Origin: Thermoflexus sp.
Lineage (GTDB): Bacteria; Chloroflexota; Anaerolineae; Aggregatilineales; Aggregatilineaceae
NCBI GenBank assembly: GCA_020724465.1
Contig: DYGX01000019.1
Location: 1-64,000 of the forward strand
Direction: 5' to 3'
Length of the DNA: 64,000 nt
Position 1 is the stretch's first letter, and the number at the start of each line of letters is the position of its first letter. A program made the translations under genes and the position numbers. The notes under the pieces were generated by a model. That model was not told the origin of the DNA. It worked only from the letters and a program-made list of their open reading frames with translations, and searched no databases. Positions 6,494 to 50,000 of the stretch are shown one piece after another.

Positions 6494-6697
6494 ATGGACC
6501 TGTCCGAATGGGCTTTGATCATCGCGCCGCTGGCCCTGATCCAGATCGGGCTGGCGGTCTACGCGCTCTACGACATCTACAAGCGCGGTGGGGCGCGCCC
6601 GCCCCTGCCGACCTGGGTGTGGGTCCTCATCGTGGCCTTCGGCCAGTTCTGGGGGCCGCTCGTCTATTTTTTCCTTGGCCGCCGAGAGGACGTCTAG
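6494..6697 (+). CDS. PLDc_N-domain small membrane protein
   Basis: This 67-residue protein has two membrane helices (about residues 7-27 and 40-60) and ends FFLGRREDV. The WVLIVAFGQFWGPLVYFFLGR stretch is the hallmark of the short phospholipase D N-terminal (PLDc_N) family, which has no catalytic part. The ATG at 6494 follows GAAGGAG. It ends 3 bases before the ABC ATPase start, so it is the first gene of the exporter operon and may be a small membrane partner of that exporter. Confidence 0.7.
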   Translation: MDLSEWALIIAPLALIQIGLAVYALYDIYKRGGARPPLPTWVWVLIVAFGQFWGPLVYFFLGRREDV

Positions 6698-6700
6698 CCT

Positions 6701-7645
6701 ATGACCGGCACGGCGATTGAGATCCGCAGCCTGACCAAACGCTTCGGGAATTTCACCGCGCTCAAGGGGTTCGATCTCACCGTTCCGCGCGGCGCGATCT
6801 TCGGTTTCCTGGGGCCCAACGGCGCGGGCAAGACCACCACGCTGCGCATCATGACCGGGCTGGCACGCGCGACCAGCGGCGACGTGGTGATCGAAGGCGT
6901 GCGCGTCGGCAGCGGGCAGCGCCCGCCCATCGGCTATCTGCCGGACACGCCCAGCTTCTACAACTGGATGACGGCGCCTGAGTTCCTGCGCTACATCGCC
7001 GATCTGCACGGCCTGGCCGATCCGCCCATCGCCGCGCTGCTGGAGCGCGTCGGCCTGGGCGACACAGGCAAGCGCAAAATCGGCGGCTACTCGCGCGGGA
7101 TGAAACAGCGGCTGGGGCTGGCCCAGGCGCTGCTGCCGCGGCCCGCCGTGCTGCTGCTCGACGAGCCGGCCTCGGCCCTGGACCCGGCCGGGCGCAAGGA
7201 AGTGCTGGACATCATGAGCGACCTGCGCGGCGAGCTGACCATCTTCTTCTCGACGCACATCCTCAACGACGCCGAGCGCATCTGCGACGCCGTCGGCATT
7301 CTGCACGAAGGCGAGCTGCTGCTCCAGGCGCGGCGCGACGAGCTGCTCGCGCGCTTTGCGCAGCCGATCTTCGAGATCGACGTCGCGCCGGACGACGCGC
7401 CGGGCCTGGCGGCGCTGGCCGAGCAGGTCAGGGCGCAGCCCTGGGCCGAGCGCGTCTATCAAGATGGCGCGCGCCTGCGCGTCAGCGTCCGCGATGTGCC
7501 GGCTGCGCGGCAGGCCCTGTTGCCGATGCTGGCCGACCGCGCCGTGCACCGCGTCGAGATGGTCGGCGCGACGCTGGAAGACGTCTTCCTGCGGCTGACG
7601 AACAACAAGACCGGCGCGACAAGCGCCGCCGAGAGGGTGGCGTGA
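6701..7645 (+). CDS. ABC transporter ATP-binding protein (ABC-2/NatA type)
   Basis: The 314-residue ATPase has Walker A GPNGAGKTT near residue 43, a Q-loop region, the YSRGMKQRLGLAQ signature (the usual LSGGQ is YSRGM, as in NatA/CcmA-type exporters), Walker B VLLLDEP and an H-loop in FFSTHIL. A C-terminal domain of about 90 residues (from residue 220) is typical of ABC-2 ATPases. It energises the permease encoded next, whose start overlaps this stop. The substrate is unknown. Confidence 0.85.
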   Translation: MTGTAIEIRSLTKRFGNFTALKGFDLTVPRGAIFGFLGPNGAGKTTTLRIMTGLARATSGDVVIEGVRVGSGQRPPIGYLPDTPSFYNWMTAPEFLRYIADLHGLADPPIAALLERVGLGDTGKRKIGGYSRGMKQRLGLAQALLPRPAVLLLDEPASALDPAGRKEVLDIMSDLRGELTIFFSTHILNDAERICDAVGILHEGELLLQARRDELLARFAQPIFEIDVAPDDAPGLAALAEQVRAQPWAERVYQDGARLRVSVRDVPAARQALLPMLADRAVHRVEMVGATLEDVFLRLTNNKTGATSAAERVA

Positions 7646-8409
7646 TGCGCGTCTTCCTGGTGCAGATGCGTAAGGAACTGCGCGAGCAGTGGCGCACGCG
7701 CAAGATGCTGATCGTCGTGGTCGTGCTGGTGGCGTTCGGCCTGATGTCGCCGGTGTTCGCCAAGATCACGCCCGACCTGCTCAAGTCGCTGGGCGAAAGC
7801 CAGGTGGGCGGGGTGCAGATCATCATCCCCGAGCCGACCACCCGCGACGCAAACGATCAGTTCGTCAAAAACACGACGCAGTTCGGGCTGCTGCTGGCCG
7901 TACTGGTCGGTTTCGGCGCGATTGTCGGAGAGCGCGAGCGGGGCCAGCTTGCCCTGATCTTCCCGCACCCGCTGCCGCGCCGGACCTTCGTGCTGGCGAA
8001 GTTTGCCGCGCTGGCGATTCTGTTCGGTGCGGCGCTGCTGCTTGGCGCCGCCGCCGATTACCTCTACACCGTGCTTTTGTTCGACGCCCCGCCAGCCGGG
8101 GGCTTTCTTGCGATGGTCGCGCTGCTGTATGTGTGGCTGCTCAGCCTGCTGGCGCTCACGCTGCTGGCGAGCACCCTGGGCCGCAACATGACGGCGGCGG
8201 GCGGGATCGCGTTCGGGCTGGTGCTGCTGGCATCGCTGGCGGGGTTGATCACGCGGCTGGCGCCCGGCGCGCTGACCGAATGGGGCCGCGCCCTCGCCAA
8301 CGGCGGGGATCCCCCGGCGCGTTGGGGCGCGCTGGCCGTCACGCTGGCGATCACCGGGCTGGCGGTCGCTGCGAGCGTGCTGATTCTGGAGCGCCAGGAA
8401 ATCGAATAG
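7645..8409 (+). CDS. ABC-2 type permease
   Basis: The 254-residue membrane protein starts with an amphipathic segment (RVFLVQMRKELREQWRTRKM) typical of ABC-2 permeases. It has a first helix at about 25-45, a long extracytoplasmic loop, and five more helices with GERERGQLALIFPHPLPR between helices 2 and 3. The latter is the conserved coupling element of this family. The ATG at 7645 shares a base with the ATPase stop codon (TGATG); a GTG one codon earlier is also possible. It forms the channel of the exporter with the preceding ATPase. Confidence 0.8.
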   Translation: MRVFLVQMRKELREQWRTRKMLIVVVVLVAFGLMSPVFAKITPDLLKSLGESQVGGVQIIIPEPTTRDANDQFVKNTTQFGLLLAVLVGFGAIVGERERGQLALIFPHPLPRRTFVLAKFAALAILFGAALLLGAAADYLYTVLLFDAPPAGGFLAMVALLYVWLLSLLALTLLASTLGRNMTAAGGIAFGLVLLASLAGLITRLAPGALTEWGRALANGGDPPARWGALAVTLAITGLAVAASVLILERQEIE

Positions 8410-34698: not shown

Positions 34699-34773
34699 GG
34701 TTCAATTCCCTCAGACCACAGTCTTCATTACAGCAGATATTCCCATACTACACCCATTTTGCGCACCCCAAAC

Positions 34774-35045
34774 AAAAACCTCGCCCTGTGACCTGTACAG
34801 CCTGGGGCGAGGTCCGAATGACCACGCGGTTCCACCCACGTTCAACAGCGTGCCGCGTGGGCACGCCGTCCTCTTTGGCCGATAACGGGGCATCCGGCGC
34901 TGTCTACTGGGCCAGGGGCCGTTCGGAGCGCGCTCTCGGGGGGTTTTCGCGGCGGGCGGTCGAGCGGGCTTGCAGTCCGAGACCCGCTCTCCCTGGGACG
35001 CGCACACAGACCGCTACTCGTCCCGATCATCGCTTTTCACGATCA
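34774..35045 (-). promoter_or_regulatory. T-box riboswitch leader, probably threonine-specific
   Basis: On the minus strand the T-box core GGGTGGAACCGCG (34837-34825) is enclosed by antiterminator arms CCGCGTGG/CCACGCGG (34853-34860, 34822-34829). It is followed by the terminator CCTCGCCC/GGGCGAGG (34812-34779) and TTTTT. Upstream are the stem I elements AGTAG (35018-35014) and GAGAGCGGG. The returning strand CCGC-GAAA-ACC places ACC (34944-34942), a Thr codon, at the specifier position. Threonine specificity is supported by thrS downstream. Nothing else is seen in 35046-35200. Confidence 0.8.
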
Positions 35046-35204
35046 TGTTCGGTTGTCAGGATAACAGCATAGCGCAAGCCGGCCCGTCAGTCAAGAGTTG
35101 GGCGCGCCTTTATAGCGATCACTAATATCTGCGCGAGGGCATCCCTGGCGCGGTGCCCGGCGTTGCATAGCTGTTTGGTACGATTTCCTCTGCATTTGGC
35201 GCTG

Positions 35205-35213
35205 TGCTATACT
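35205..35213 (+). promoter_or_regulatory. Extended -10 (TGCTATACT), probably leaderless start
   Basis: TGCTATACT ends 6 bases before the ATG at 35220, so transcription should begin at or near the A of the start codon. No ribosome binding site is present before that ATG, consistent with a leaderless mRNA. No clear -35 is seen. This starts the eight-gene operon. Confidence 0.6.
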
Positions 35214-35219
35214 GACGCT

Positions 35220-35516
35220 ATGCAAGACGCGAATCTGCCGGATGACCTCGAGCGTTGGGTTCCTCGTCTGCGCGGTTGGGCAGCGCGCCTGCGCGCGCTG
35301 CGGCTCGATGGCGCTGCCGGGGTGCTGCTGGACGTGGCCGAGCCGCTGGGCCCCATCGGAGCGCAGTTGTTGTGGGTGGTACAGCCGGCGCTGGCGTGGG
35401 TCGCCCCGCGCGACGAGGTCGCCGCGCTGGCGCGGCTGATCGACGCTCCGGGCGGGGTCGCCTGGATGCGCGAGCAGCTCATCGCCGGGGACGGAGAAGA
35501 AAGCGACCATGAATGA
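35220..35516 (+). CDS. 98-residue helical protein, first gene of the undescribed operon
   Basis: The product is short, Leu/Ala/Arg-rich and helical (RLRGWAARLRALRLDGAAG), with a hydrophobic stretch around 50-65 (PIGAQLLWVVQPALAWV) that may be an amphipathic or re-entrant helix. I recognise no family. It overlaps the next gene by 8 bases, so translation is coupled. Confidence 0.6.
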   Translation: MQDANLPDDLERWVPRLRGWAARLRALRLDGAAGVLLDVAEPLGPIGAQLLWVVQPALAWVAPRDEVAALARLIDAPGGVAWMREQLIAGDGEESDHE

Positions 35517-36249
35517 CAGCGCGCTGATCATTGTTGTGCTGACCATCGCCTTTTCCGCGACGCTGATTGGCGCGGTGATTGCGCGGCGCGTGGCGGTGCC
35601 GCTGCGCCCCATCGCCGCCTACCAGGCGCTGCCGGAGATCGCCGCCGACGCCGTCGAGAGCGCCCGGCGCGTGCATGTCTCCCTCGGCAGCAGCGCGGTC
35701 GGCGAGCCGGGCACCGTAAGCGCGCTGGTATCCAGCGAGATCGCCTATCAGCTTGCCGAGCGCATGGCGATCAGCCCGTACCCGCCGCTGGTCACGCTCA
35801 GCCAGGGCACGACCCTGCCGCTGGCGCAGGACACGCTGCGCCGCGCCTACGAGGCCCGCCAGCGCGCGGCCTATTTCCGCCCCACGCAGGTGACCTGGTA
35901 CCCGCAGGGGCCGCGCTCGCTGGCCTTTGCCGCGGGCGCGTCGAGCCTGGCCGCCGACAGCGACGTTTTCACGTCCATTCTGCTGGGTCGCTTCGGGGCG
36001 GAGCTGGCCTATTTCGGCGAAAGCGCCGTGCGCCACGACCAGATTCTGATCGCGCACAGCGACCAGCCGGGCGGCCAGGCGATCGCGTATGCTCAGTCGG
36101 ACCGGCCACTGCTCGGCGAGGAGCTGTACGCCGGCCCGGCCTATCTGACCCGGCGCCCGCTGCACGTCGGGACCGTCGTGGCGCTGGATGTGCTGCGCTG
36201 GCTGGTGATTCTGGCGATCCTGTTCACCGCGCTCCAGGCCGCGCTGTGA
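35509..36249 (+). CDS. DUF6754-like membrane protein
   Basis: The 246-residue protein has single membrane helices at each end (about 5-25 and 222-243) and a mixed alpha/beta domain between, containing PPLVTLSQGTTLPLAQDTLRRAY and AFAAGASSLAADSDVF. The pattern reminds me of DUF6754-type proteins found in Chloroflexota, though I cannot confirm it. The large central domain lies on one side of the membrane, either side possible. Confidence 0.5.
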   Translation: MNDSALIIVVLTIAFSATLIGAVIARRVAVPLRPIAAYQALPEIAADAVESARRVHVSLGSSAVGEPGTVSALVSSEIAYQLAERMAISPYPPLVTLSQGTTLPLAQDTLRRAYEARQRAAYFRPTQVTWYPQGPRSLAFAAGASSLAADSDVFTSILLGRFGAELAYFGESAVRHDQILIAHSDQPGGQAIAYAQSDRPLLGEELYAGPAYLTRRPLHVGTVVALDVLRWLVILAILFTALQAAL

Positions 36250-36316
36250 GACAACGGGTAGAATGAAGCGCCCGGCGGAACCGCCGGCCATCGAGACGCG
36301 AAGTAGGGGGGTGCGC

Positions 36317-36967
36317 GTGAGACGCCATCGCTTGCTCAACTTCCTGGCGACCGCCACCGCGATGATCGCGGGCGTAACGATGGTGATCGGCCTGCTGAGC
36401 GATCCCGGCTCAGACGCCCGCGCCGTCGCCGCACTGGTGATCCAGCTTGTGGCCGTCACCGGCGCGATCGCCGTGCTGCTTGGCATCCTCAACCTGCTGA
36501 GCGTCCACCTGGGTCGCTTCACCCACGCGGAGCGCGGCTGGCCGTACAGCCTGCTTGTGCTGGTGGTGGCCGTCGGCGTCATCGTGCTGCGCATTCTGGA
36601 TCGCGCCGCGATCTGGTCGGGCGATCTCGAGGGCGAACAGCTCAGCCCGCGCGTCTTCGAGGCCGTCCAGGTCAGCGTGGAGTCGGCGCTGGCGGCTCTG
36701 GTCGTTTTCTTTCTGGTCTACGCCGCCTTTCGGTTGATGCGCCGGGGCGTGACCGGGTGGAATGTGCTGTTCACGGTAACGATCGTGGTCGCGCTGGTCG
36801 GCTGGATTCCGCTTGAAGACCTCGACGTGTTCGCGGAACTGCGCGAGTGGCTGGTACGCGTGCCGGTGGGCGCGGGCGCGCGCGGCATTTTGCTTGGCGT
36901 TGGGTTGGGCACGGTCACGGCGGGCGTGCGGGTGCTGCTCGGCCAGGACCGCTCGCTGCGCGACTAG
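36317..36967 (+). CDS. Polytopic membrane protein, unrecognised
   Basis: The 216-residue product has about six hydrophobic segments (LLNFLATATAMIAGVTMVIGL, VAALVIQLVAVTGAIAVLLG and four more). There are acidic residues in the loop between segments 3 and 4 (GDLEGEQLSPR). GTG at 36317 follows GGGGGG; an in-frame ATG at 36263 is another candidate. It is co-directional with and 30 bases from the large Asp-Trp-motif gene. Confidence 0.6.
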   Translation: MRRHRLLNFLATATAMIAGVTMVIGLLSDPGSDARAVAALVIQLVAVTGAIAVLLGILNLLSVHLGRFTHAERGWPYSLLVLVVAVGVIVLRILDRAAIWSGDLEGEQLSPRVFEAVQVSVESALAALVVFFLVYAAFRLMRRGVTGWNVLFTVTIVVALVGWIPLEDLDVFAELREWLVRVPVGAGARGILLGVGLGTVTAGVRVLLGQDRSLRD

Positions 36968-36997
36968 GCGCCGGCATCCTGAGGGGCAGGACAGCGT

Positions 36998-39900
36998 ATG
37001 CCAGACGATCGCAACCTCTTTGACGATGACAGCCTGCTTCCCGATAAGGAACAGGCTCAAACGCCCGGCGCGGCCCGCCCGCCCTGGGAGACGCGGCCCG
37101 GCGCTCAGCCAGCCGAGCCGCAGGACGCTGCGCCGACTCCGGCGCCATGGGAACTGCACCCCGGCGCTCCCGAAGCCGCGCCCGGCTCCGAGCCGGCGTC
37201 CCTCGACGCGCTGCGCCAGCAGGCCAGCGCCTGGGAGACATGGGATCTGGCCGACGAAGAAGCGCCGGACGAGCACCACGCGCAGGCCTCTGATGAATCC
37301 GGCACCGGCGATCTGGCCTGGATGAGCGCGTTCGGGACCGCCGCCGACGCCGCGCCCACACCCCCCGAAGAAGACGATCTGTCCTGGCTGGGCGAAATCG
37401 AGCCGGGGCAGGAGCCACCGCCCGGCGAGGCGCCTGCCGCGCCGCGCAAAATGGATACCGACGAACTGCCCTGGCTGGATGACGAGACTTTCCGCCGCAT
37501 CCCCACGATCGAGCCGGAAGACGACCTTGTGCTGTCATCCCCGGACCTGGAAGCGGAATTCCTCACGGCGGAACAGCCCGCCGAACCTGCCGAAGCGATC
37601 CCTGATTGGCTGAGCGAACCCTTCAGCGCGGATGAGGCCGAGACCGCCTCAGACAGCGCCCGCCTGCCCGCTCCACCCGAAGAAACCCCGGAGCCTCGCA
37701 GCGTGATCCGGCGGTTAGAACCCCTCAAGCCGTCGCCGCCCGCCGAAGACGAAGGCGTGCCCGACTGGCTGAGCGAAGCCGACCAGGCGCTCGACGCGGT
37801 CGAGGCCGGTCAGCCGCCCGCGCTGACCTACGACGAATGGGAGCGCCAGCAGGAAGAACAGGAGCGCGAAGCGCGCAAGACGCCCGAAGAGCGCCTGCTG
37901 GAAAGCGTGCCGGACTGGTTCGAGAAGTTCGGCGACGAGCCGGTTCCGCCCCCGCCCGCCGGCCAGCCGCAGGACAAGCCCCAGGAGCCGGATTTTGTCC
38001 CAGGCTGGTTCATGGGGCTTGAGGAGCAAGCTCCCGAAGAAGCGCCAGACTGGGTTCAGAAGCTCGATTTCACGGGCGATCCGCTGGCCGCGCCAGCCGC
38101 GCCGCCAGCCCCCGCGCCCGAACCCGACCTGGAAGACGAGGTACCCGACTGGTTTAAGGGAATCGGCGCGCCCGGCGAGGCAGGCCCGGTTTCCCCCACC
38201 GCCCCGCCCTTCCTCAGCGAGCCGGGCCAGGACTTGCCCGCAGGCGAGGAGCTTCCGTTTGCCGATTGGATGGCCGGCGCGGAAGCGGACCGGACAGAAG
38301 CGGACACAGGCGACTTTGTCGAGCGGTTTGAGCCGCTCCAGCCGACCGATTTCGGCCCGGCGCCCGACGCCGACAGCATCCCGGATTGGCTGCGCGAGAT
38401 CGAGCTTCAGAGCCAGGCTGCGCCGTTCGCGCAGCCGGACGAAGCGCCGGCGGACGACAGCCTGGACTGGCTGGCCAACCTTTCGCCAGAGGATGTCGCC
38501 GCCAGCCAGGCACTCGAAGAGCTATTCGGCGCAGAACCCCAGCCTGCCCCCGTAGCGCCCGCGCCTGAAACACCCGAACCACCGGCAACCCTGGCCGAAG
38601 AGGAGCTGGAAGACTTGCTGGGGCGCTATGAGGCGCCACCCCCGCAAGAGCCGCTGGAAGCAGGCGAGACGGCCTGGGCCGACGAGCAGGCGCTGGCCGC
38701 GTCGCTCGATCAGGCGCTGACGGCGGAAGCCCAGCCGGAGCTTGAGGGGTTCTTCCCGGAGATCCACCCCGGCCAGCCCATCCCCGGATTGGAGCGCCTC
38801 TTTGAGGACGAGACACCGCCGCCCGGCGAGCAACCGCGTGAAGCTGCCCCGGCGGAACCCCCCGACTGGGTCGCGGACCTGCGCCCGTCCGATCTGCCGG
38901 TGACGGTGCGCGCAGCCGGTGCCGAAGTCGATGTGCCGCAGACGCCCGTCGTCGAACTGCCTCCGCGCGTCCACGCCTTCCGCGAGAAGACCCTGCGCGA
39001 GCTGGGCGAACCCCCACCCCCGCCGCCTGCCGCCGAAGCCGGCGCGCTGGCCGGGATCGCGGGCGCGCTGGGGCGGGTGGATGCGATCCTGCCCGCCGAG
39101 GAACCGGCCGGGCCGCTTTCAGGCGTGGTGGTCACGCGCGAGCAGCAGACGCGCGTCAAGAAGCTTCAGGCGCTGCTGGCCGCCGCCGAAGAGCCGGAAG
39201 AAGGCCCCGCCGCGACGCCGGAGCCGCTCGAAGCGCTGGCCGTGCCGGGACGCGCGCCGCGCCGTCCGCGCCGGGCGCGCCGCTTCAAGCCCGACCGCCT
39301 GGTCGTGATGCTGCTGATGCTGGCGGCGTTGGTGGTCCCGTTTGCCACCGACGCCCTGCATTTCGCCGGCGATCCGCCGCCGCTGGGCGTGGCCGGGCAG
39401 GACACCGCCGCGCTGTTCGACGCGCTCGAACCCGGCGATTATGTGCTGATCGCGTTCGAGTACGGGCCGACCGCCGCGGGCGAGCTGGATCCGCTGGTCG
39501 ATGCCGTGCTGCGCGATGCGTTCGTGCAGGGTGCCGTCCCGCTGGCGATCAGCACCAATGTGGGCGGGGCGCTACACGCCGAGGCCGTCTTGGCGCCGTT
39601 GGCCCACGACGACGCGCTGCTGGCCGCCCGTTCCGGCGAGCGCAATCCATCGCCGCTGCGGGCCGGGCGGGATTACGCGCTGCTCGGCTACCTGCCCGGC
39701 GATCTCTATGGTGTGCGGACGCTGGCGGACGTCTACGGCGAGGCCGGAACGGTGCACCCGGCTTTCGCCACCGATCTACGCGGCAAAGCGACCAATCTTC
39801 CGGTTCATGCCGTGGCCGAAGACATCGCCCTGATCGTCGTCGCGGGCGAGGAAATCGACGACGCGCGCACCTGGGCCGAGCAGCTCAAAGACGTGCCTGT

Positions 39901-40195
39901 GCCGAAGGTCGCGCTGGTGACGGCCGCGCTGGAGCCGCTGATCGATCCATATGTGTATGAGGACGGCTACGCGGGCTACCTGGCCGGGGTGCGCGACACG
40001 TACCGCTATAACCTGGCGCGCAACGCCAACGCGCGCACGCCGTACACCCTGCCCGATGGCCTGTCATTCGACCTTCCCAACCCAGAAGAAGCGCGCTGGC
40101 ACAGCATGGCGCTCGGCGCGGCGGCGGCTGCCGCGCTGATCGCGCTCGGCCTGCTCATCAACCTCTCCCGCACCCTGCTACGGAGGCGGCTGTGA
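36998..40195 (+). CDS. Large acidic protein with a dozen Pro-Asp-Trp motifs and a C-terminal membrane domain
   Basis: Residues 1-740 of this 1065-residue protein are disordered, rich in Pro, Ala, Glu and Asp. They carry repeated short motifs of the form hydrophobic-Pro-Asp-Trp-hydrophobic: IPDWLSE (about 201), VPDWLSE (254), VPDWFEKF (304), APDWVQKL (350), VPDWFKGI, IPDWLRE, LDWLANL, PPDWVADL and related forms. A basic segment leads to a membrane helix at about 767-787. A soluble alpha/beta domain of about 245 residues and a final helix at 1037-1058 follow. The N-terminus is probably cytoplasmic. No known family. Confidence 0.65.
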   Translation: MPDDRNLFDDDSLLPDKEQAQTPGAARPPWETRPGAQPAEPQDAAPTPAPWELHPGAPEAAPGSEPASLDALRQQASAWETWDLADEEAPDEHHAQASDESGTGDLAWMSAFGTAADAAPTPPEEDDLSWLGEIEPGQEPPPGEAPAAPRKMDTDELPWLDDETFRRIPTIEPEDDLVLSSPDLEAEFLTAEQPAEPAEAIPDWLSEPFSADEAETASDSARLPAPPEETPEPRSVIRRLEPLKPSPPAEDEGVPDWLSEADQALDAVEAGQPPALTYDEWERQQEEQEREARKTPEERLLESVPDWFEKFGDEPVPPPPAGQPQDKPQEPDFVPGWFMGLEEQAPEEAPDWVQKLDFTGDPLAAPAAPPAPAPEPDLEDEVPDWFKGIGAPGEAGPVSPTAPPFLSEPGQDLPAGEELPFADWMAGAEADRTEADTGDFVERFEPLQPTDFGPAPDADSIPDWLREIELQSQAAPFAQPDEAPADDSLDWLANLSPEDVAASQALEELFGAEPQPAPVAPAPETPEPPATLAEEELEDLLGRYEAPPPQEPLEAGETAWADEQALAASLDQALTAEAQPELEGFFPEIHPGQPIPGLERLFEDETPPPGEQPREAAPAEPPDWVADLRPSDLPVTVRAAGAEVDVPQTPVVELPPRVHAFREKTLRELGEPPPPPPAAEAGALAGIAGALGRVDAILPAEEPAGPLSGVVVTREQQTRVKKLQALLAAAEEPEEGPAATPEPLEALAVPGRAPRRPRRARRFKPDRLVVMLLMLAALVVPFATDALHFAGDPPPLGVAGQDTAALFDALEPGDYVLIAFEYGPTAAGELDPLVDAVLRDAFVQGAVPLAISTNVGGALHAEAVLAPLAHDDALLAARSGERNPSPLRAGRDYALLGYLPGDLYGVRTLADVYGEAGTVHPAFATDLRGKATNLPVHAVAEDIALIVVAGEEIDDARTWAEQLKDVPVPKVALVTAALEPLIDPYVYEDGYAGYLAGVRDTYRYNLARNANARTPYTLPDGLSFDLPNPEEARWHSMALGAAAAAALIALGLLINLSRTLLRRRL

Positions 40196-40878
40196 CTCCT
40201 GAGACTCTCGACCTGATCGGCGGCTGGGTGTCGCTGGTGCTCACGCTCATGGTGTTCAGCTATCTGCTGGGCGACAACTTCCTCTACCGCATCGCGGTGC
40301 ACGTCCTGGTCGGCGTCGCCGCGGGCTATGTGGCGGTTGTCGCCGTCGAGAACGTGATCCTGCCCTGGATCAACGCGACGCTACTGGCCGATCCGGGTGA
40401 GGCCGGCCAGACAACCCTACGGGGGATGCGGGCCGTGGGCGCGGTTCCGTTCCTGATCGGTGTGCTGCTGCTGTTCAAGGTCTCGGCGCGGCTGGCGCCG
40501 GTCGGCAATTTGGGACTGGCGCTGCTCGTCGGCGCGGGGACGGCTGTGGCCGTGATCGGCGCGGCGCGCGGGACGATCATCCCTCTGGCTCGCGAGACCG
40601 GCCAGGCCGCCGGCGGCGAGGACAGCGCCCTGATTGAGGGCGTGATCCTGATCATCGGTGTGATCACGACGCTGGCCTATTTTCAGTATCTGGCGGCGGC
40701 GCGCGATGGCCGCGTCCAGCGGGCGCGCGGGCTGCGCGTGTTCAGCGGTGTGGGGCAGGCGTTCGTGATCGTGACGCTCGGCGCGCTCTACGCGGGCGCG
40801 ATCCTGACCAGCCTGACCATCTTCAGCGGTGTGTTCCGCGACCAGCTTGAGTTCATCCTCGACAAAGTAGGGGGCTAG
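40192..40878 (+). CDS. Six-helix membrane protein, unrecognised
   Basis: The 228-residue protein has six predicted helices (about 5-25, 30-50, 77-97, 103-125, 148-168 and 181-210) with short loops and few charges. GTG at 40192 overlaps the preceding stop by 4 bases. The next gene begins 6 bases after its end. I do not recognise a transport family. Confidence 0.65.
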   Translation: MTPETLDLIGGWVSLVLTLMVFSYLLGDNFLYRIAVHVLVGVAAGYVAVVAVENVILPWINATLLADPGEAGQTTLRGMRAVGAVPFLIGVLLLFKVSARLAPVGNLGLALLVGAGTAVAVIGAARGTIIPLARETGQAAGGEDSALIEGVILIIGVITTLAYFQYLAAARDGRVQRARGLRVFSGVGQAFVIVTLGALYAGAILTSLTIFSGVFRDQLEFILDKVGG

Positions 40879-40884
40879 CCGGCG

Positions 40885-42708
40885 ATGGCCTTTGAACAAG
40901 TCAATTCGGTCCTCGTCGCAGACATCGGCAGCGCGCACACCCGCCTGCTGCTGATCGACCTGGTCGAGGGGCAGTACCGGCTGGTGGCGGCGTCACGAGC
41001 GCGCACCACCGCCGCGCCGCCGCTGGGTCGGGCCTCGCTTGGTTTGGAAGACGCGGCTCAGCGCATGACCGCCCAGATCGGGCGCAAGCTGGTCAGCAGC
41101 GACCCGGATCAGCTCTTCCTGATGCCCGAATCCGGCGGCCACGGCGTGGACGAATTCCTGGCGACGGGCAGCGCCGGACGGCCCATGCGCGTGCTGCTGG
41201 TCGGCCTGACGCCGGAGATCAGCCTGGCGAGCGGGCGGCGCGCGCTGTCCGGCAGCTACGTGACCGTCACCGACGTGCTCAGCCCGGACGATACGCGCAG
41301 CGAAGAAGAGCAGATCAACGCCATCCTGCGCGGCGAGCCAGACTTGATCGTGATTGTGGGCGGGACGGACGACGGCGCCGAATCGGTCCTGCTGGCCTTG
41401 GTCGACCGCGTGCGCGACGCGCTGGCGCTGATCGGGCGCGGGAACGTCCCGGCGGTGCTATTCGCGGGCAACCACCGGCTGCGCGGTCAGGTGAAACTGA
41501 TGCTGGAGCCATATACCAGCGTTTTCGTCGCCAGGAATGTACGCCCCTCGCTGTCTGACGAGCAGCTTTTCCCGGCGCAGCTTGAGCTGGCGCTGGTCTA
41601 CGACGACTATCGCAGCCGGACGGCGGGGGGTTTTGCAGAAGTCGGGCGGCAGAGCCAGGTCGGTGTGGTGCCAACCTCGCAGGGTTATATCAGCACGGTG
41701 CGCTATCTCAACACGCTGCCGCGCCGGCGCGGGATCGCCGGGCCGCTGATCGTGGACGTGGGCAGCGCCAACAGCGTGATTGTGGCGGGCGTGGGCGGCG
41801 AGCCGTACTATACCATCCGCACCGATCTGGGCATCGGCGAGCATTTCCCCAGCGCGCTGGCGGCGGTCGGCCCTCAACGCGTGATGGAGTGGCTGCCGTT
41901 CGAGACCACGCCCGACGCGCTGTGGGATTACGCGCACAACAAGGCGCTGCGCCCCGGCACCATCCCCGGCACGCCGGAAGACCTGATGATCGAGCAGGCG
42001 CTGGCGCGGGCGATCGTGCGCCAGCTTGTGACGGAGTCGCGGGCGGATTGGGGCGTTGCGCCGGATGGGAAGCTGCCCGCCTTCGATCCGATTATCGGCG
42101 CGGGCGCCATCCTGACCGAAGCGCAGCATCCGGGCATCTGTGCCATGCTGCTTCTCGACGCGATCCAGCCCGAAGGCGTGACCGATCTGCAGATCGACCC
42201 GGCCAACCTGCTGTCGGCGGCGGGCGTGATCGCCTACCTCAAGCCGTTGATTACGGTTCAGGTGCTGGAAACGGGCGGCCTGCTGCGTCTGGGGACGGCT
42301 TTCAGCCCGACCGGACAGGCACGCTATGGCCGGCCGGCGATGCATGTGCAGATCCAGCCGGACGACGGCCCCACCATCAACCACACGGTCAAGGGCGGCG
42401 AAGTGTGGATGGCCCCGGTGCTGCCCGGCGTCGCGGCACGGGTGACCGTCCGGCTGCGCGGCGGATTGTCGATCGGCGGCAAGGGTCGCATCCGCCAGCG
42501 CGTGATCGCAGGCGCCGCCGGGATCATCTTCGACGCGCGCGGGCGTCCGCTGGCCATGCCGCGCCCGCGGGACCGCGCGGCCCGTCTGACACGCTGGCAG
42601 GCGGCGATGGGCGGGCAGGAGGTGGCGGCTGCCCTGGAACGCGCCGCCGCATCCCCCATGCACAGCGCCCCACCGCCCGAGGAGAACGTCTATGCCGTAC
42701 TATCCTGA
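40885..42708 (+). CDS. MutL-family (glutamate mutase L-like) actin-fold protein
   Basis: The 607-residue protein has two phosphate-binding loops of the ASKHA/actin-like fold: VLVADIGSAHTRLLLID at 9-25 and PLIVDVGSANSVIVAG near residue 290. The intervening and following pattern (DDTRSEEEQINAILRGEPDLIVIVGGTDDGAE, FDPIIGAGAILTEAQHPG) resembles MutL, a chaperone-like protein of glutamate mutase. No mutase subunits are near. In this operon it more likely serves as an ATPase for the membrane assembly. It overlaps the next gene by 17 bases. Confidence 0.65.
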   Translation: MAFEQVNSVLVADIGSAHTRLLLIDLVEGQYRLVAASRARTTAAPPLGRASLGLEDAAQRMTAQIGRKLVSSDPDQLFLMPESGGHGVDEFLATGSAGRPMRVLLVGLTPEISLASGRRALSGSYVTVTDVLSPDDTRSEEEQINAILRGEPDLIVIVGGTDDGAESVLLALVDRVRDALALIGRGNVPAVLFAGNHRLRGQVKLMLEPYTSVFVARNVRPSLSDEQLFPAQLELALVYDDYRSRTAGGFAEVGRQSQVGVVPTSQGYISTVRYLNTLPRRRGIAGPLIVDVGSANSVIVAGVGGEPYYTIRTDLGIGEHFPSALAAVGPQRVMEWLPFETTPDALWDYAHNKALRPGTIPGTPEDLMIEQALARAIVRQLVTESRADWGVAPDGKLPAFDPIIGAGAILTEAQHPGICAMLLLDAIQPEGVTDLQIDPANLLSAAGVIAYLKPLITVQVLETGGLLRLGTAFSPTGQARYGRPAMHVQIQPDDGPTINHTVKGGEVWMAPVLPGVAARVTVRLRGGLSIGGKGRIRQRVIAGAAGIIFDARGRPLAMPRPRDRAARLTRWQAAMGGQEVAAALERAAASPMHSAPPPEENVYAVLS

Positions 42709-43771
42709 CACGCGTGTGGTGAAGGGCCTGGCGCGCATCGTCCGCGAGCGGCGCCTGCCCCCGCACGCCGTTCCCCGCGCGACAGCAACCCCCAGCGGCA
42801 CGCCCGTCGAGGCGGTGCACGTCGTGCTGCAGGGCGATGTGCTGCGCGATTACCGGATCATCGACGTGGCGGATTATTTCGACACGCGCGACACCGCGCG
42901 CGCCGCAGGCTGGATCGAGGTCGGCGAGGGCGACCATGTGACCGCCGGGCAGCCGTTGGCCCAGCGCGGGCGCGGGCGGCGGGCGCGGACGCTCAACGCG
43001 CCGGCCAGCGGAATCGTGGTGCGCCTGGACGGAGCGCGCATCGTGCTGCAAGTCAGCGAGACAGCGGTGGAAGTGCTCGCCAAGATCCCCGGCGAGATCA
43101 CCGCCGTCGAACCGCACGCCGTTCAGATCACCGGCATCGGAGCGCTGATCCAGTGCGTGTGGGGCAACGGCGGCTATGCCTTCGCCACCCTGCGCGAGCT
43201 TCCGCCGGACGGTTTCGCCGGGCTGAGCAAGCTCGACACACGCATCTCCGACTATCGAAACGTCGTCGTCCTCAGCCCGCAGCCGCTGACCCGTGGGGAT
43301 CTGCTCGTCGCCCAACAGCAGGAGCTGGCGGGCGTCGTAGCGCCGAGCATGCCCTCGAACTTGCGCGAATTTGCGCTGGGGCTTACATTCCCAGTATTGT
43401 TAACGGAAGGTTTCGGGCACATCCAGCCCACTGAATTGATCTATCGGCTTTTGCAGAGTAACATGGGGCGACAGGCGGCTTTCGACGCGGCAGTTCCCGA
43501 TCCCTGGTCTCCAAACCGGCCCGAGATCATGATTCCGCTGCCCTCAGGGGGCACCATGCCCGCCGCGCCATCGCTGCACGACCGGCTGACGGTTGGCGCC
43601 CGTGTTCGTCTGACGCGCGCGCCCTGGCAGGGGCTGACGGGCGAGGTGAGCGAGCTGCCGGAAACACCGCAGATCGTCGAGAGCGGGCTGCGTGTGCCTT
43701 GCGCGCGCGTGCGCGTCAGCGGTGGACGTGTGATTACCGCCCCGCTCGCCAATCTCGAATTATTTGGCTAG
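42692..43771 (+). CDS. Protein with barrel-sandwich domain and C-terminal KOW-like segment
   Basis: The 359-residue protein contains a barrel-sandwich-hybrid (biotinyl/lipoyl-like) stretch around 70-130 (VGEGDHVTAGQPLAQRG, TLNAPASGIVVRLDG). It has a central domain with an FALGLTFPVLLTEGFG hydrophobic loop, and a C-terminal KOW-like element (GARVRLTRAPWQGLTGEVSEL) as in NusG or ribosomal proteins. No lipoylated Lys motif is present. The start overlaps the MutL-like gene, implying a stoichiometric partner. Confidence 0.55.
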   Translation: MPYYPDTRVVKGLARIVRERRLPPHAVPRATATPSGTPVEAVHVVLQGDVLRDYRIIDVADYFDTRDTARAAGWIEVGEGDHVTAGQPLAQRGRGRRARTLNAPASGIVVRLDGARIVLQVSETAVEVLAKIPGEITAVEPHAVQITGIGALIQCVWGNGGYAFATLRELPPDGFAGLSKLDTRISDYRNVVVLSPQPLTRGDLLVAQQQELAGVVAPSMPSNLREFALGLTFPVLLTEGFGHIQPTELIYRLLQSNMGRQAAFDAAVPDPWSPNRPEIMIPLPSGGTMPAAPSLHDRLTVGARVRLTRAPWQGLTGEVSELPETPQIVESGLRVPCARVRVSGGRVITAPLANLELFG

Positions 43772-43827
43772 CCTCGTGATAGGGGGCCACCGCAGCACCC
43801 TCACGTGCACCTAACGCGGAGGAAATT

Positions 43828-45423
43828 ATGGGCTTCGAAGACCTGGAAGATCTCAGCGAACTTGACGAAATGCCGCCGTTCGAGGAGGATTTAACGCTTC
43901 CCGACTTCGACGAAGAGCCAGGGGGCGGCGTCAGCCGGACCTTCAAGATCATCGGTGCGCTGTTGGTGCTGCTGGTCGTCGGGATCGTGGCCGTGCTGGT
44001 GTGGTGGGCGCTGCAAGGCGGCAATGAGCCAAGCCCTAACGAGAAAACCAGCACCGCCATCGTCGCCATGAACGCCACGACCTTCGCGGACGCGACGCGC
44101 ACGCAGGAAGCCTACCAGGCGACGCTGGAAGCCCTCTCCATCGCGGCCACGGCCAGCCAGGAAGCGATCGCGACCTTCGAGTTCTACTCAACCCAAACGC
44201 AGGAAGCCGCCATCCAGCAGGAGATCCAGCGGCAGACGCAGGCCGCGCTCGACGCGGCGGCAACCGCCACCGCCGAGGCCGACCTGAATGCCACCGCTTT
44301 TGTGCTAACCCAGACCCAGGCCGTGAGCGACGCGAACCTGACCGCGACCGCCATCCAGTCGCGCGCATTCAGCGGCCAGGTGATCGACGAGGCGGGCAAT
44401 ATCTTTGGTGGTGTCATTCTGCGGCTGTATCGCGACGACGGCGACGGGATCTTCAACCCGGCGGACGAGTTCGCCATGTCCGGCGCGCCGCAGCCCAACC
44501 CCGGCTCGACGCCGCAGCCTGGCACGCCGCAGACGCTGGCCTACGGAGACACGGTCAACGATACGCTGGAGCGCGAGTCGGTGGATCTGTGGCGGTTCGA
44601 GGGACGGGCCGGCGACGTGGTCACCATCGAGGCGATCGCCGGAAACCCGGCGCAGATGGATATGTTCCTGGTCCTGCTCGGCCCCAACCAGCAACCCCTG
44701 ACCGATGACGACGACAGCGGCGAAGAGCTGAACGCGATGATTAGCGGCTACACGCTGCCCCAGGACGGAGTCTATACCATCCAGGTCAGCAGCGTCTCCG
44801 GCCCCGGCCCCTACACGCTGCGCCTGACGGGCAGCACGTCCGAAACCGAGAGCCAGGGCGCACTGCCGCGCGTGCAGGACCGCAGCGGGATTCGCCTGGT
44901 TCAGCTTGGGGCGCCGTCGCCCACGCCGATTCCCGGCGGCGGCGACACGTTCATCACCTTCACCGAGACGGACCTGGAAGGCCAGTTCCAGTTCGAAGAC
45001 CTGGACCCTGGCATCTACTGGCTGGTGATCGACTACGACAGCCTGCCCGAAAGCATCAAGGCGCTGATCCCGCGCACCGAGGAACTGGTCATTATGGTCA
45101 CCGTCCCGGTGACGGGCCGCGTGACCTTCACCGTCGGCGTGCCGCCGACTGCGACGCCCGACGACTCGATCTTCCGGACGCAGACCGCGATCGCGACGCT
45201 GACCGTGTCCCCCGAGGCGCTCGGCTCGCCCACGCCGGAAGCCACAGCTTCGCCGACGACCGGGCCGGACCTGACCGCCACGCTGGAGCGCTACGGCTTG
45301 CTGTCGGACTTCGGCGCAACAACCGGTCTGGAAGGCGGCAGCGGCCTGACGGTGCTCGCCATTGCCGCGGCTGGTCTGGTGGCGGTGGTGTTCATCGCGC
45401 GCAAGCTGCGCACCGCGGCCTGA
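43828..45423 (+). CDS. Membrane-anchored surface protein with nested PPC domain
   Basis: This 531-residue protein has an acidic cytoplasmic N-terminus and a membrane helix at about 45-67. A Thr/Ala-rich coiled stalk (70-170) follows, then a beta domain beginning FSGQVIDEAGNIFGGVILRLYRD. A bacterial pre-peptidase C-terminal (PPC) domain is inserted in it (DTVNDTLERESVDLWRFEGRAGD to YTLRLTGS), after which the first domain resumes (DTFITFTETDLEGQFQFEDL). A Pro/Thr linker and a second helix end it. GGAGG precedes the ATG. Last gene of the operon. Confidence 0.65.
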   Translation: MGFEDLEDLSELDEMPPFEEDLTLPDFDEEPGGGVSRTFKIIGALLVLLVVGIVAVLVWWALQGGNEPSPNEKTSTAIVAMNATTFADATRTQEAYQATLEALSIAATASQEAIATFEFYSTQTQEAAIQQEIQRQTQAALDAAATATAEADLNATAFVLTQTQAVSDANLTATAIQSRAFSGQVIDEAGNIFGGVILRLYRDDGDGIFNPADEFAMSGAPQPNPGSTPQPGTPQTLAYGDTVNDTLERESVDLWRFEGRAGDVVTIEAIAGNPAQMDMFLVLLGPNQQPLTDDDDSGEELNAMISGYTLPQDGVYTIQVSSVSGPGPYTLRLTGSTSETESQGALPRVQDRSGIRLVQLGAPSPTPIPGGGDTFITFTETDLEGQFQFEDLDPGIYWLVIDYDSLPESIKALIPRTEELVIMVTVPVTGRVTFTVGVPPTATPDDSIFRTQTAIATLTVSPEALGSPTPEATASPTTGPDLTATLERYGLLSDFGATTGLEGGSGLTVLAIAAAGLVAVVFIARKLRTAA

Positions 45424-45467
45424 TCGACGCCGGGCCGTGCTGCCCGGACACACACCAGACATCTATC

Positions 45468-45499
45468 TGCCGTAGGGACGCCGCCTTGTCCCTACGGCA
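45468..45499 (+). terminator. Hairpin after the eight-gene operon
   Basis: TGCCGTAGGGAC (45468-45479) pairs with GTCCCTACGGCA (45488-45499) in a 12-bp perfect stem with an 8-base loop, about 45 bases after the operon's last stop. It has no T-run. It separates the operon from the regulator that follows. Confidence 0.55.
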
Positions 45500-45535
45500 T
45501 ATGTACTATCTAATCCGGATACGATCGCACCCGTT

Positions 45536-46924
45536 ATGGTCCAGATACCCGCCACATCCATCTACCGCTCTGCCGATGCAGCCGCGATCCGCGAGGTGCT
45601 GGGTCGGGGCCAGCCCGTCGCAGTAATCGGACTGAGCAACTTTGGCAAATCCACCCTGCTGCGCTATCTGGCCAATCCGCTTCACAGCGAGCAATATCGC
45701 CAGCAGACCGGGCGCCAGGCGATCTTCGTCTATGTGGACTGCAACCGGATGCTGGAGATGACGCCGCAGGGATTCTACGAGGTGATCCTGCGCGCGTTGC
45801 TGGAAACCCTGCGGAGCGTGGGCGCTCCCGACGCGCTGTACAACACCATCGCGGCCTACTACGGGCGCGTGGTTGAGGGAACCGGGTCGTTCGCCATCCC
45901 GCTGGCCTTCAACAACGCGATCGTCGCGCTGATGGACGACGAGCACAACCGCGACGTGGTGCTGTTGCTGGACGAATTTGACGCGGTGCTGACCGGGCTT
46001 GACGAGCGCGTGTTCCTGAACCTGCGCGCCATCAAAGACAAATACGGCCCGCGTCTGAACTACCTCACGGCGACCGTCCGTCCGCTGTCGGCGGCGGGCG
46101 GCGGCGACGACCTGGCGGAGTTCATCGAGCTGTTCGCCGCGCACAAGTATGTGCTCCAACCGCTATCCCCCGACGACGCCACCGCGCTGGCCGGCGATAT
46201 CTTCCGCAGCGCCAACGACACGCTCGAACCGCTCGAGCGCCGCTTTATTCTGGAGCAGGCCGGGGGGCATCCCGGGCTGATAGAGGCGGTGGCGCACGTG
46301 GTGATGCAGATCGAGTCGGGCGCGCCCGCCTCGTACACCGCGCAGGCGTTCAGTATGGCCGCCGATGAACTGCAAAACCACCGCCTGGTGCGCGCCGAGC
46401 TGAACAAGCTCTGGTCTCAGCTTCCCGCACCGGCACGCAACATCGCCGTGACCGCGGCGGTTCACGGCATGGACGCGCTCCAGAACGACCAGCGACGCGA
46501 GCTGGAAGCACTGGGGCTGATCGTGCGCGACGAACACGGCGAGCGCCTCTTTGCCCGCCTGCTGGAGCACTACGCGCGCCGCCAGGCGCTGGTCCAGCGG
46601 AGCGCGCCGGAAGGGGTGCGGGTCGATCTCGACGCCGGAACCGTCTGGGTCGAGGGGAAAATGACCGAGCCGCTCACCGATCTGGAGTACCGGCTGCTGC
46701 TGCTGCTGTACGGGCGCATGGATAAAATCTGTGATAAGTATCAGATCGTCGAAAGCGTCTGGGGGCAGGAATATCTGGGCGAGGTCGATGACGCGCGCAT
46801 TGAAAAGCTGGTCAGCCGCCTGCGCGCCAAGCTGGAACCCGACCCCGCCCGCCCAAAGTATATCTCCACCGTCCGGGGGCGCGGCTACCGGCTGAACAGC
46901 GCGCCCGACACCACCGCGCCGTAA
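45536..46924 (+). CDS. ATPase fused to an OmpR-type winged-helix DNA-binding domain
   Basis: The 462-residue protein has Walker A GLSNFGKST at 32-40 and a Walker B VVLLLDEFDAV near residue 140. A helical region with a PLSPDDATALA motif (AAA/STAND-like ATPases) follows, then residues about 362-455 form an OmpR/PhoB winged helix (TDLEYRLLLLLYG, ARIEKLVSRLRAKL, ISTVRGRGYRL). There is no receiver domain, so ATP or an effector bound to the ATPase part presumably controls it. It may regulate the operon upstream or the kinases downstream. Confidence 0.75.
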   Translation: MVQIPATSIYRSADAAAIREVLGRGQPVAVIGLSNFGKSTLLRYLANPLHSEQYRQQTGRQAIFVYVDCNRMLEMTPQGFYEVILRALLETLRSVGAPDALYNTIAAYYGRVVEGTGSFAIPLAFNNAIVALMDDEHNRDVVLLLDEFDAVLTGLDERVFLNLRAIKDKYGPRLNYLTATVRPLSAAGGGDDLAEFIELFAAHKYVLQPLSPDDATALAGDIFRSANDTLEPLERRFILEQAGGHPGLIEAVAHVVMQIESGAPASYTAQAFSMAADELQNHRLVRAELNKLWSQLPAPARNIAVTAAVHGMDALQNDQRRELEALGLIVRDEHGERLFARLLEHYARRQALVQRSAPEGVRVDLDAGTVWVEGKMTEPLTDLEYRLLLLLYGRMDKICDKYQIVESVWGQEYLGEVDDARIEKLVSRLRAKLEPDPARPKYISTVRGRGYRLNSAPDTTAP

Positions 46925-46981
46925 CCCGTGCCCGCGCCGCGCACGCCTCCCGGCAGGTCCCCCGCGAGCGAATCGGACGTG

Positions 46982-46990
46982 TGCTATACT
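46982..46990 (+). promoter_or_regulatory. Extended -10 (TGCTATACT) before the multi-GAF kinase
   Basis: TGCTATACT ends 43 bases before the ATG at 47034. No -35 is evident; a TG-extended -10 can suffice for a housekeeping sigma factor. Confidence 0.5.
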
Positions 46991-47033
46991 GTGGGCTGCA
47001 TCGCTTGGTCCGGCTGAAAGCCTGGGTCAGAAG

Positions 47034-50000
47034 ATGGCGTACCTGCTGATTCTGCCGATCGCCCTGTACATCGCGCTGGCAACCGTCGCGATCCAGCGCC
47101 AGCCGCGCACGATCTCCAGCATTGTGCTGGCGCTCTACCTCGGCGTCGCGGCCATTGCCTCTTGCGCGCTCTTGATCCTGGGCACGACCGACAACCCGCG
47201 CCTTGCCGACTTCGTCGCGCTGGTGATCACCGTCCTGACCGCTTCGTTCTACTGGCTGTTCCTGCCGCTGACCCTCATCGGCCTCTATTACGATACGCGC
47301 CTGCGGCGCCTGCCGCGCGGGCGTCTGGCGCTGATGCTGGGCGCGGCGCTGGCGTTGATCGCCGCGCTCGATGTGCTTCTGGTCCGCGCCCTTGTCGCCA
47401 GCCCCGGCCCCATCGCGGTGCGAGCAGCGCACAGCTTCTGGCTCGGCTGGTGGCTGGAACACGGCCGGTCGCCGCTGGCGCTGATCGGCGTTCTGCTGGC
47501 CGCCCAGCTTCCCGTGCTGGCGGTGGTTGTGGTCAGCGTTCGCACCCGGCGGATGGACCTGTGGCGGGTGGCTGTGCCGCTGGTCTTTGCGTCGATGCTC
47601 AGCCTGATGATCCCGCTGGTCACCCCGCTGACCGGCACACGCTGGACCATTACCCTGACGGGTCTTGGCTACGCGCTGCCGATCCTCGTGCTGACGCGCA
47701 CGGTCGAGCACGTTGCCCCCGAACTGCCGCTGACGACGCTGCTGCAGTCGATGATCGACAGCCACAGCGCGGGCGCGTTTGTCATCGACAGCAAGCGCCG
47801 CGTGATCTGGACCGACCGCCAGATCAGCCGCTGGCTCGGTGGGAATGGAGCGCCTGCCGGTCTGGTTCCACCGTCGCTGGGCGAGTTTCTACGCAACACC
47901 CCGCTGCGCGACGCGACCCTGGCGCTGCTGGCTGCAGATGAAACCAGCGGGGAGTGCGTCATCCCCGACGCGACGGACGAGCGCGTGTTGCGCATCGAGC
48001 GCCACCCGCTCCAGGCCGAGGTCGGGATGCCGGGCGCGCAGCTTTTCATTCTGTACGACATTACCACCTCGCGCATCCGGCAGGACTTGCACGAGCGCCG
48101 CCAGGAAATCCTGGCGCTCAGCGCCGTCAGCGCGGACATCGCTTCGGCGCTGGACATGGACGAGGTCATCACGCGCGCGCTGACGCAGGTAGTCGCCATG
48201 ACGCACCTCAACGCGGCGGCGATCGCCCTGCTCGACCCGGCAGCGCCGGGCGGGCTGCGGCTCGCCGGCAGCACCGGCCTGCCCGCTACCCCGGACGCGA
48301 CACGTCACGCGCTGCCCTTTGGGGATGCGATCATTCATCAGGCGCTGCAAAGCCGGGCGCCGGTCATCATCTCCGACGCAACGCGAGACGCCGACTACGG
48401 GCCGCACCTGGTTCAGACCGGCATTCTGTCGCTCGTCACCGTGCCGCTCATCGCGCGCGATCAGGTGATCGGCGCGCTGCTGGTAGGCCGCGAGACGCCG
48501 TACACATACGAGCCGGTCACGGTCGCGCTGATCGAAAGCGTGGGGCGCCAGCTGGCGGTTGCCATCGAAAACGCGCGCCTGCACGCCGAGGAGCGCGCCC
48601 AGCGGCTGCTGGCCGAAACGCTGGCCGAAGTCGCGGGGATTCTCAACTCCGTCGATCTTGATCACGCCTTGCAGCAGATGCTTGAATTGCTGCGCCGCGT
48701 GCTGGAGTTCGAGACGGCCAGCGTGCTGCTCAACGCCGAGCCGGGCCAGCTTCGCCTGAGCGCGTACACCGGTTTCGACAACCCGCCCGACCGCGAGACG
48801 CTGCTTCAGATCCGGGTGGAGATCGCGCGGCTGCCCTATCTGCAGCGGCTATTCGCCGAGCGCAAACCCCTGCTGGTCGCCGACACGACGCACGATCCCG
48901 TCTGGGTTCAGCGCGACCACCCGCGCGGATCGTGGCTTGGTATCCCGCTGCTCATGCACGATCAGGTTTTCGGCTGCTTCAGCATTTCGCACTCGCAGCC
49001 GGGCCACTTCACCGAGCGCGACCTGCAGATCGCCGCCGCTTTCGCCGACCAGGCCGCGGTGGCAGTCGAGAATCACCGCCTCATCGCCAGCGAGCACCGC
49101 CGCCGCGTCCAGGCCGAGACTCTGCAGCAGACCTCGCACGACCTGGTCACCAGTCCCAACCTGGACCGGGCGATGTCCGCCGCGCTCAACCATCTGGCGG
49201 CCGTGCTCCAGTTCGACCGCGCGCATATCGCGCTGTTGGAAAATGGCGGGCGCGTCTGGACCCCCCGCGCCAGCCTGCCCACGCCCCCCAGACTGCCCGA
49301 AAACAAATCGCTGCTGGTGGCCGATTTTCCGCTGATCGCCGAGCTGGTGAAAACCAAGCGCCCGCTGCTGATCGCCGACACGCGCCAGCATGACCTCTGG
49401 CGGCCGGGGCGCTACAGCCCGCGCGAAATCCGAAGCTGGATCGGCATCCCGCTGATCGTGCGCGATCGCGTCATCGGCCTGCTAAACGTGGATAGCTACG
49501 AGCCGAATCGCTTTTCAGAAGAGCAGTTCCAGATCGCGCAGGTCTTCGCCAACCAGATCGCGGCGGCCATTGAGATTTTCCGCCTGATCGAAGCCGCCAG
49601 CCGCCAGAACCGCGCCATGCAGGCGTTGAACACCATCCTCTCGGCCAGCAACGAGGCGCTCACCCAACAAAACCTGATGGCCGTGCTGCTCACGCGCGTG
49701 CTGGAAGCGCTCAACGTCAAGGCGGGCGCGATCCACCAGCGCGACGCGGACTGCGGTGATCTGGTGCTTCAGGCGGCCGCCGGCCTGCCGGATGCGGTTG
49801 TCGAGCAGATCCGCCGCATCCCGCTGGCGACCACGCTCCCGCCGGTCGCGCTGCCGGACGATTTCGAGATGGCCTTTCTGAGCGTGCCGCTGATCTCACA
49901 CGGCAGCGAGATCGGCTTGCTGAGCCTGTGCCAGCCCAGGCAGACGCCCTTCAGCCCCACGCTGCACCGGCTGCTGCCGCAGATCGGCCAGCAGTTGGGC

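Follow-up and report, generated by a model that had tools for sequence, protein, structure and literature searches.

Why would genes for membrane and surface proteins be kept in one operon with a gene for an actin-fold ATPase? The question is raised by a locus of Thermoflexus sp. (Chloroflexota; assembly GCA_020724465.1), where the window, the 64,000 nucleotides of contig DYGX01000019.1 that we analyzed, carries eight co-directional open reading frames (ORFs) on the + strand between positions 35220 and 45423. Their products, here g1 to g8, are 98, 246, 234, 1065, 228, 607, 359 and 531 amino acids long. We propose, with close to an even chance of being right, that the products of the operon form a membrane platform spanning the envelope, in which g4 would use multivalent peptides to gather g6 and g7 at the membrane.

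The ORF coordinates bear out the operon structure described in an initial annotation of this DNA: the junctions g1/g2, g4/g5 and g6/g7 overlap (the GTG start codon of g5 overlaps the stop of g4) and g5 and g6 are 6 bases apart, so that four of the seven junctions are tight, and the remaining gaps are 13, 30 and 56 bases. A crude consensus scan of the + strand from 34700 to 47100 found no sigma-70-like promoter, in keeping with the earlier statement that none is internal. The ratio of nonsynonymous to synonymous substitution rates against relatives lies between 0.04 and 0.33 for each of the eight genes; because this is well below 1, the ORFs are taken to be real genes under purifying selection. 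Transmembrane segments are predicted in g2, g3, g4, g5 and g8, and none is predicted in g1, g6 or g7, which agrees with the reading of most products as membrane-bound. g2, g6 and g7 are each present in a single copy in the source genome.

The genes are conserved as a unit in relatives. Among 251 evenly sampled Chloroflexota genomes the g2 family, DUF6754, was found in 56, and wherever DUF6754 and a MutL-like g6 share one contig they lie on the same strand within a few kilobases. Iterative profile searches of the ORFs in 40 fetched regions showed that the 20 loci with DUF6754 had the order g1-g2-g3-g4-g5-g6(-g7) up to the contig ends, with g1 missed in two. The g6 alignment, scanned against a named genome collection, gave 478 confirmed relatives, and in the best 80 of these, all from Chloroflexota, g1 to g7 were collinear in 80 of 80, interrupted by contig ends only. 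In 63 of the 80 loci these genes were followed directly, on the same strand, by one of the g8 type. The initial annotation had asked whether the members are scattered in relatives; they are not, and because the order is identical in all of these loci the clustering is not due to chance. Drift can maintain operons, and unrelated genes might be co-inherited in a slowly rearranging region. However, the other flanking genes are mostly not conserved around the 80 loci, whereas g1-g8 are, and the order is kept across classes at 25-40% protein identity, so we regard simple co-inheritance as very improbable. DUF6754 was found in none of 14 control genomes outside Chloroflexota, and a protein search of plasmids with g2 and g7 gave no match; as far as tested, the operon is peculiar to Chloroflexota. 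It is present in Herpetosiphon aurantiacus and in the Anaerolineae isolate Ornatilinea apprima (locus L179).

What kind of ATPase is g6 (40885..42708)? Its first ~460 residues (about 9-462) match PF13941, the MutL family of ASKHA proteins, above the cut-off (1.3e-54), as the earlier recognition of an ASKHA fold in the 607-residue protein would lead one to expect. The match to the GlmL equivalog NF040745 falls short (78 bits, with a cut-off of 475), and an extra C-terminal domain carries a near-invariant DARGRPL motif. The likeness to platforms built on PilM or MreB that had been drawn for the operon is not supported for this protein: g6 matched none of the FtsA, PilM and MreB models PF14450, PF11104 and PF06723 at E-values up to 1, and the FtsA of the source genome, encoded beside ftsZ, matches all three. 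No glutamate mutase epsilon subunit (PF06368) was matched in the source genome, which is 99% complete. Judged by these profiles, g6 is a divergent MutL/GlmL-family ASKHA protein without a mutase partner.

Its companion g7 (42692..43771) has a confident AlphaFold model (predicted local distance difference test, pLDDT, 92) of three domains, which agrees with the earlier description of barrel-sandwich and KOW-like parts: an RnfC_N-like barrel-sandwich hybrid, a swivelling beta/beta/alpha domain (~43139-43546) and a KOW/Tudor-like barrel (~43583-43768). The fold of the middle domain matches rifampin phosphotransferase, enzyme I, RraA and UPF0107 (Z 8.6-10.1, root mean square deviation 2.4-4.7 over about 100-127 residues). 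As a candidate relative of g7 the lysozyme structure 5i8l was discarded, its match being limited to a short WGNG-type stretch.

The pair of g6 and g7 is distributed far more widely than the full operon: of the 251 genomes, about 144 have a clear g7 match at E below 1e-18, and 153 have one at E below 1e-3. Outside Chloroflexia g7 adjoins g6 in every examined locus, including those where g6 is highly divergent; in Chloroflexia it is located elsewhere in the genome. Compact loci retain, immediately upstream of the pair, a gene for a motif-bearing protein; this is often disordered, with a zinc ribbon and LPxWL motifs, and it ends in a transmembrane segment or a basic tail or helix. Relatives of g1 (35220..35516), the small soluble protein without a Pfam family that opens the operon, also stand upstream of g6-g7 in some of them. 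A tree of g6 shows broad vertical clustering and does not resolve a single origin of full versus compact g6; two of its canonical MutL rows are wrongly chosen neighboring ORFs, and it was used for clustering only.

Several other genes were seen near g6 relatives. Macrodomain genes lie beside g6-g7 in the compact loci L221, L224 and L213, with a g1-like gene between in L213 and L221, and in the compact locus L218 an alanine racemase-like ORF (6599-8044) overlaps the start of g6. In locus L073 (4233-8027) a protein of 1264 residues combines an N-terminal part resembling glutamate mutase with a MutL domain; it seems to represent a genuine mutase system, separate from the operon.

The membrane core would be formed by g2, g3 and g5. 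g2 (35509..36249) belongs to DUF6754 (PF20539; 80 bits with a cut-off of 27), and its model (pLDDT 95) has a Rossmann-like domain (residues ~32-216) bracketed by two transmembrane helices. Fold searches with it returned only generic, tied Rossmann matches at Z of about 10; R33, E50, H56, E165, Q190, E204, E205 and R230 are invariant polar residues. g3 (36263..36967) and g5 (40192..40878) are polytopic, each with about six predicted transmembrane segments, and searches of families gave no family, transporter or secretion match for either. No relatives of solved structure were found by sequence for g2, g3, the C-terminal part of g4, g5 or g6, and the g2 domain and the outer domain of g4 showed no homology when their profiles were compared.

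These features also allow an enzymatic reading, in which g6 and g7 act as a reactivase or chaperone and, like the dehydratase reactivases, reset a membrane enzyme composed of g2, g3 and g5. The nearest relatives of g6 are MutL and GlmL, the swivelling fold class of the g7 middle domain is also found in diol dehydratase reactivase, and so many invariant polar residues on the Rossmann-like domain of g2 would suit an enzyme. However, the operon has no B12-type partner, just as the genome has no mutase epsilon subunit, and a reactivase would leave the peptide arrays of g4, its SH3b domains and g8 unexplained. We consider this reading doubtful and, on balance, unlikely.

The outward face of the system is represented by g8 (43828..45423). 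A profile match together with our reading of the sequence places a PPC domain between the two halves of a CarboxypepD_reg-like domain, the arrangement previously noted as nested beta domains in a surface protein. In the window g8 has an acidic N-terminal tail, SRTF before a transmembrane segment, and a C-terminal transmembrane segment followed by RKLR. Homologues share the acidic tail and a conserved NRTF or SRTF before the transmembrane segment, followed by Thr-rich spacers, an LPxTG-type sequence, a transmembrane segment and RRLR; the LPxTG-type signal occurs in most of them, a simple pattern detecting it in 37 of 65. The source genome encodes three sortases.

Two polytopic membrane proteins, a surface protein and sortase-type signals could instead describe a machine for export and surface assembly, with g3 and g5 as conduit, g6 as power source and g8 or other sortase-tagged proteins as substrates. 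We think this improbable: neither g3 nor g5 matches a family of transporters or secretion proteins, no ASKHA protein is known to act directly as a translocation motor, and g8, with an ordinary transmembrane segment, could use Sec. The earlier suggestion of a surface-assembly machine gains some support from the sortase signals of g8 homologues, the three sortases and the SH3b domains in g4 homologues, but none of these shows a substrate or an assembled structure, and that part stays conjectural.

The protein that may hold the platform together is g4 (36998..40195), a 1065-residue transmembrane scaffold. Its disordered, motif-rich part is present as initially described, but it is N-terminal (36998..39277) rather than a C-terminal tail. 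These first ~760 residues are low-complexity and precede a first transmembrane segment (residues 768-786), an alpha/beta-type domain and a second transmembrane segment (1036-1054; together 39299..40159). In about 15 of 63 homologues wall-binding SH3b domains lie between the two segments, before the second, a position that assigns the part between the segments to the exterior of the cell and the motif region to its interior. We infer that g4 is a membrane-spanning protein whose motif tail lies in the cytosol and whose folded part faces outward, close to the wall.

The N-terminal region in the window contains six [LIV]P-x-W-[LF] motifs (IPDWL, VPDWL, VPDWF, VPGWF, VPDWF and IPDWL), where shuffled sequences have a mean of 0.12 and a maximum of 1. 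Two relatives carry 36 and 41 motifs against shuffle means below 0.4, and pooling the motifs gives the consensus D-[LVI]-P-x-W-L-R. When the 251 genomes were searched with a strict DNA pattern for D[ILV]PxWLR, the hits clustered almost only within g4, with 31 hits against 0 in the control for genome G238, 28 against 1 for G118 and 15 against 2 for G102; a TPR-type protein and a small number of other proteins were exceptions. By a hand tally, 57 genomes whose families lack a convincing g7 gave 27 hits against 35 in the control.

Motif clusters and single motifs were also seen elsewhere. At C53:85700-88000 of the source genome (L112, L113), away from the operon, a second protein or pair of proteins has several LPDWL motifs, one with TPR repeats, and similar clusters occur at G080:C9:180164-181254 and G112:C1:3369256-3369635. 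A membrane thioredoxin-like protein (L108, 1456-2076) has a single ELPDWLEQ in its N-terminal tail, which hints at a general motif receptor. The arrays at G118:C1:324796-325439 (L077) and G238:C1:4434030-4435573 consist largely of near-identical repeats at a 48-base spacing, which suggests recent tandem expansion and variable copy number.

What might such peptides bind? The g4 motif resembles the LDIPAFLRR at the end of FtsZ in the source genome, which finishes in DLDIPAFLRRANR; other Chloroflexota FtsZ proteins end in DIPPFLRR, DVPTFLRN or DIPAFLRK, to be compared with DIPTWLRE, DVPAWLRD and DLPDWLRD in g4. The g4 motif and the FtsZ C-terminal peptide, whose receptors are FtsA, ZipA, SepF and MinC, thus have in common the pattern D-[ILV]-P-x-aromatic-L-R. 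In the DIPAFL of Escherichia coli FtsZ the I and the L are critical for binding ZipA, FtsA and MinC (PMC4117426), and both positions are kept in g4. The platform could then be linked to division, its motifs mimicking the FtsZ tail and recruiting FtsA, SepF or another receptor, so that at the septum it ties division to the wall and surface in these often filamentous bacteria; the adjacency of FtsA to FtsZ in the source genome would fit. However, g4 has Trp for Phe and an acidic residue after the Arg where FtsZ has a basic one, and it presents many repeats on a transmembrane carrier. The operon lies apart from ftsZ, FtsZ is expected also in genomes without motif arrays, and the likeness was noticed post hoc, with no chance level that can be given for it. 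We regard a link to division as unlikely. We treat the likeness as a lead and not a demonstration, and the binding of a receptor as putative.

We return to the envelope-spanning platform, for which a sequence of steps can be proposed. The repeated D-[ILV]-P-x-W-L peptides would bind and concentrate a cytosolic partner at the membrane, the most probable candidate being the g6 ATPase together with g7, its obligate partner, in a docking modeled on that of FtsA with the FtsZ tail or of PilM with a tail peptide of PilN. By binding or hydrolyzing ATP, and with g7 acting as the coupler, g6 would remodel the membrane core of g2, g3 and g5, and the remodeled core would use g4 and the surface protein g8 to act on the wall or surface. 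In favor of the proposal are the collinearity of g1-g7, the g8-type gene behind them, the adjacency of g6 and g7, the motif-bearing protein upstream of g6 in compact loci, the enrichment of the motifs and their clustering in g4, the SH3b domains, the LPxTG-type tails of g8 homologues with the three sortases, and the low substitution ratios. Several observations weigh against it. Motifs are missing in 5 of 29 g4-type proteins examined, so they are not the sole means of holding a complex. PDWL motifs occur in other proteins of the source genome, and the receptor of the motifs may therefore lie outside the operon, as a general hub. In some g6 members E or N replaces the Asp of the first ASKHA phosphate loop, which makes hydrolysis uncertain. 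The g8 of the window has no clear LPxTG, its signal being degenerate. Finally, the idea that compact g4 proteins have amphipathic C-terminal tails is weakly supported, with two of six clearly above shuffles.

In its boldest form, which we regard as speculative and unlikely, the hypothesis would give Chloroflexota a second actin-fold membrane-anchored machine beside FtsA, organized by arrays of peptides that resemble the FtsZ tail, up to about 40 of them carried by a transmembrane protein linked to the wall. The arrays would bind FtsZ-tail receptors or the MutL-like ATPase and so tie septum or wall growth, or gliding, to surface proteins. The operon represents a conserved, undescribed envelope system in a phylum in which little is known of the machinery for division, filaments and gliding; according to the genome paper of Herpetosiphon aurantiacus, the genes for gliding in Chloroflexi had yet to be identified (PMC3368417). 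The presence of the operon in cultured strains, that species and Ornatilinea apprima, makes the hypothesis testable, and the repeated g4 peptide offers a direct experimental entry to its receptor.

Downstream of g8 an AAA/NACHT-like ATPase with an OmpR-type winged helix (45536..46924, + strand) is probably not part of the core; a homologue is found downstream in 27 of the surveyed loci. The fusion is a possible regulator.

How does the operon compare with known systems? The initial annotation saw no known secretion, pilus or division family, and this stands, although g2 does belong to a Pfam family. No PilM/N/O/P or Gsp family of type IV pili or type II secretion is among the Pfam and NCBIfam matches of the products, the PADLOC defense models gave no match in g1-g8 at E up to 0.01, and no match to a characterized operon was found. 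No paper naming DUF6754 or PF13941 turned up in the literature searched. The operon is thus undescribed in that literature and is not a member of any system tested. DUF6754 is a family without a described function. The first domain of g7 has the barrel-sandwich fold of the N-terminal domain of RnfC and NqrA, but the rest of g7 consists of swivelling and KOW domains, with no redox parts. MutL and GlmL, the companions of B12-dependent ornithine and glutamate mutases, have the ASKHA domain in common with g6, which differs in its DARGRPL domain, its membrane-protein neighbors and the lack of a mutase subunit in operon and genome. Compared with the platforms built on FtsA, PilM or MreB, the operon has no pilus or division partners, but it would share with them an ASKHA ATPase at the membrane, bitopic partners and short linear motifs as proposed docking peptides.

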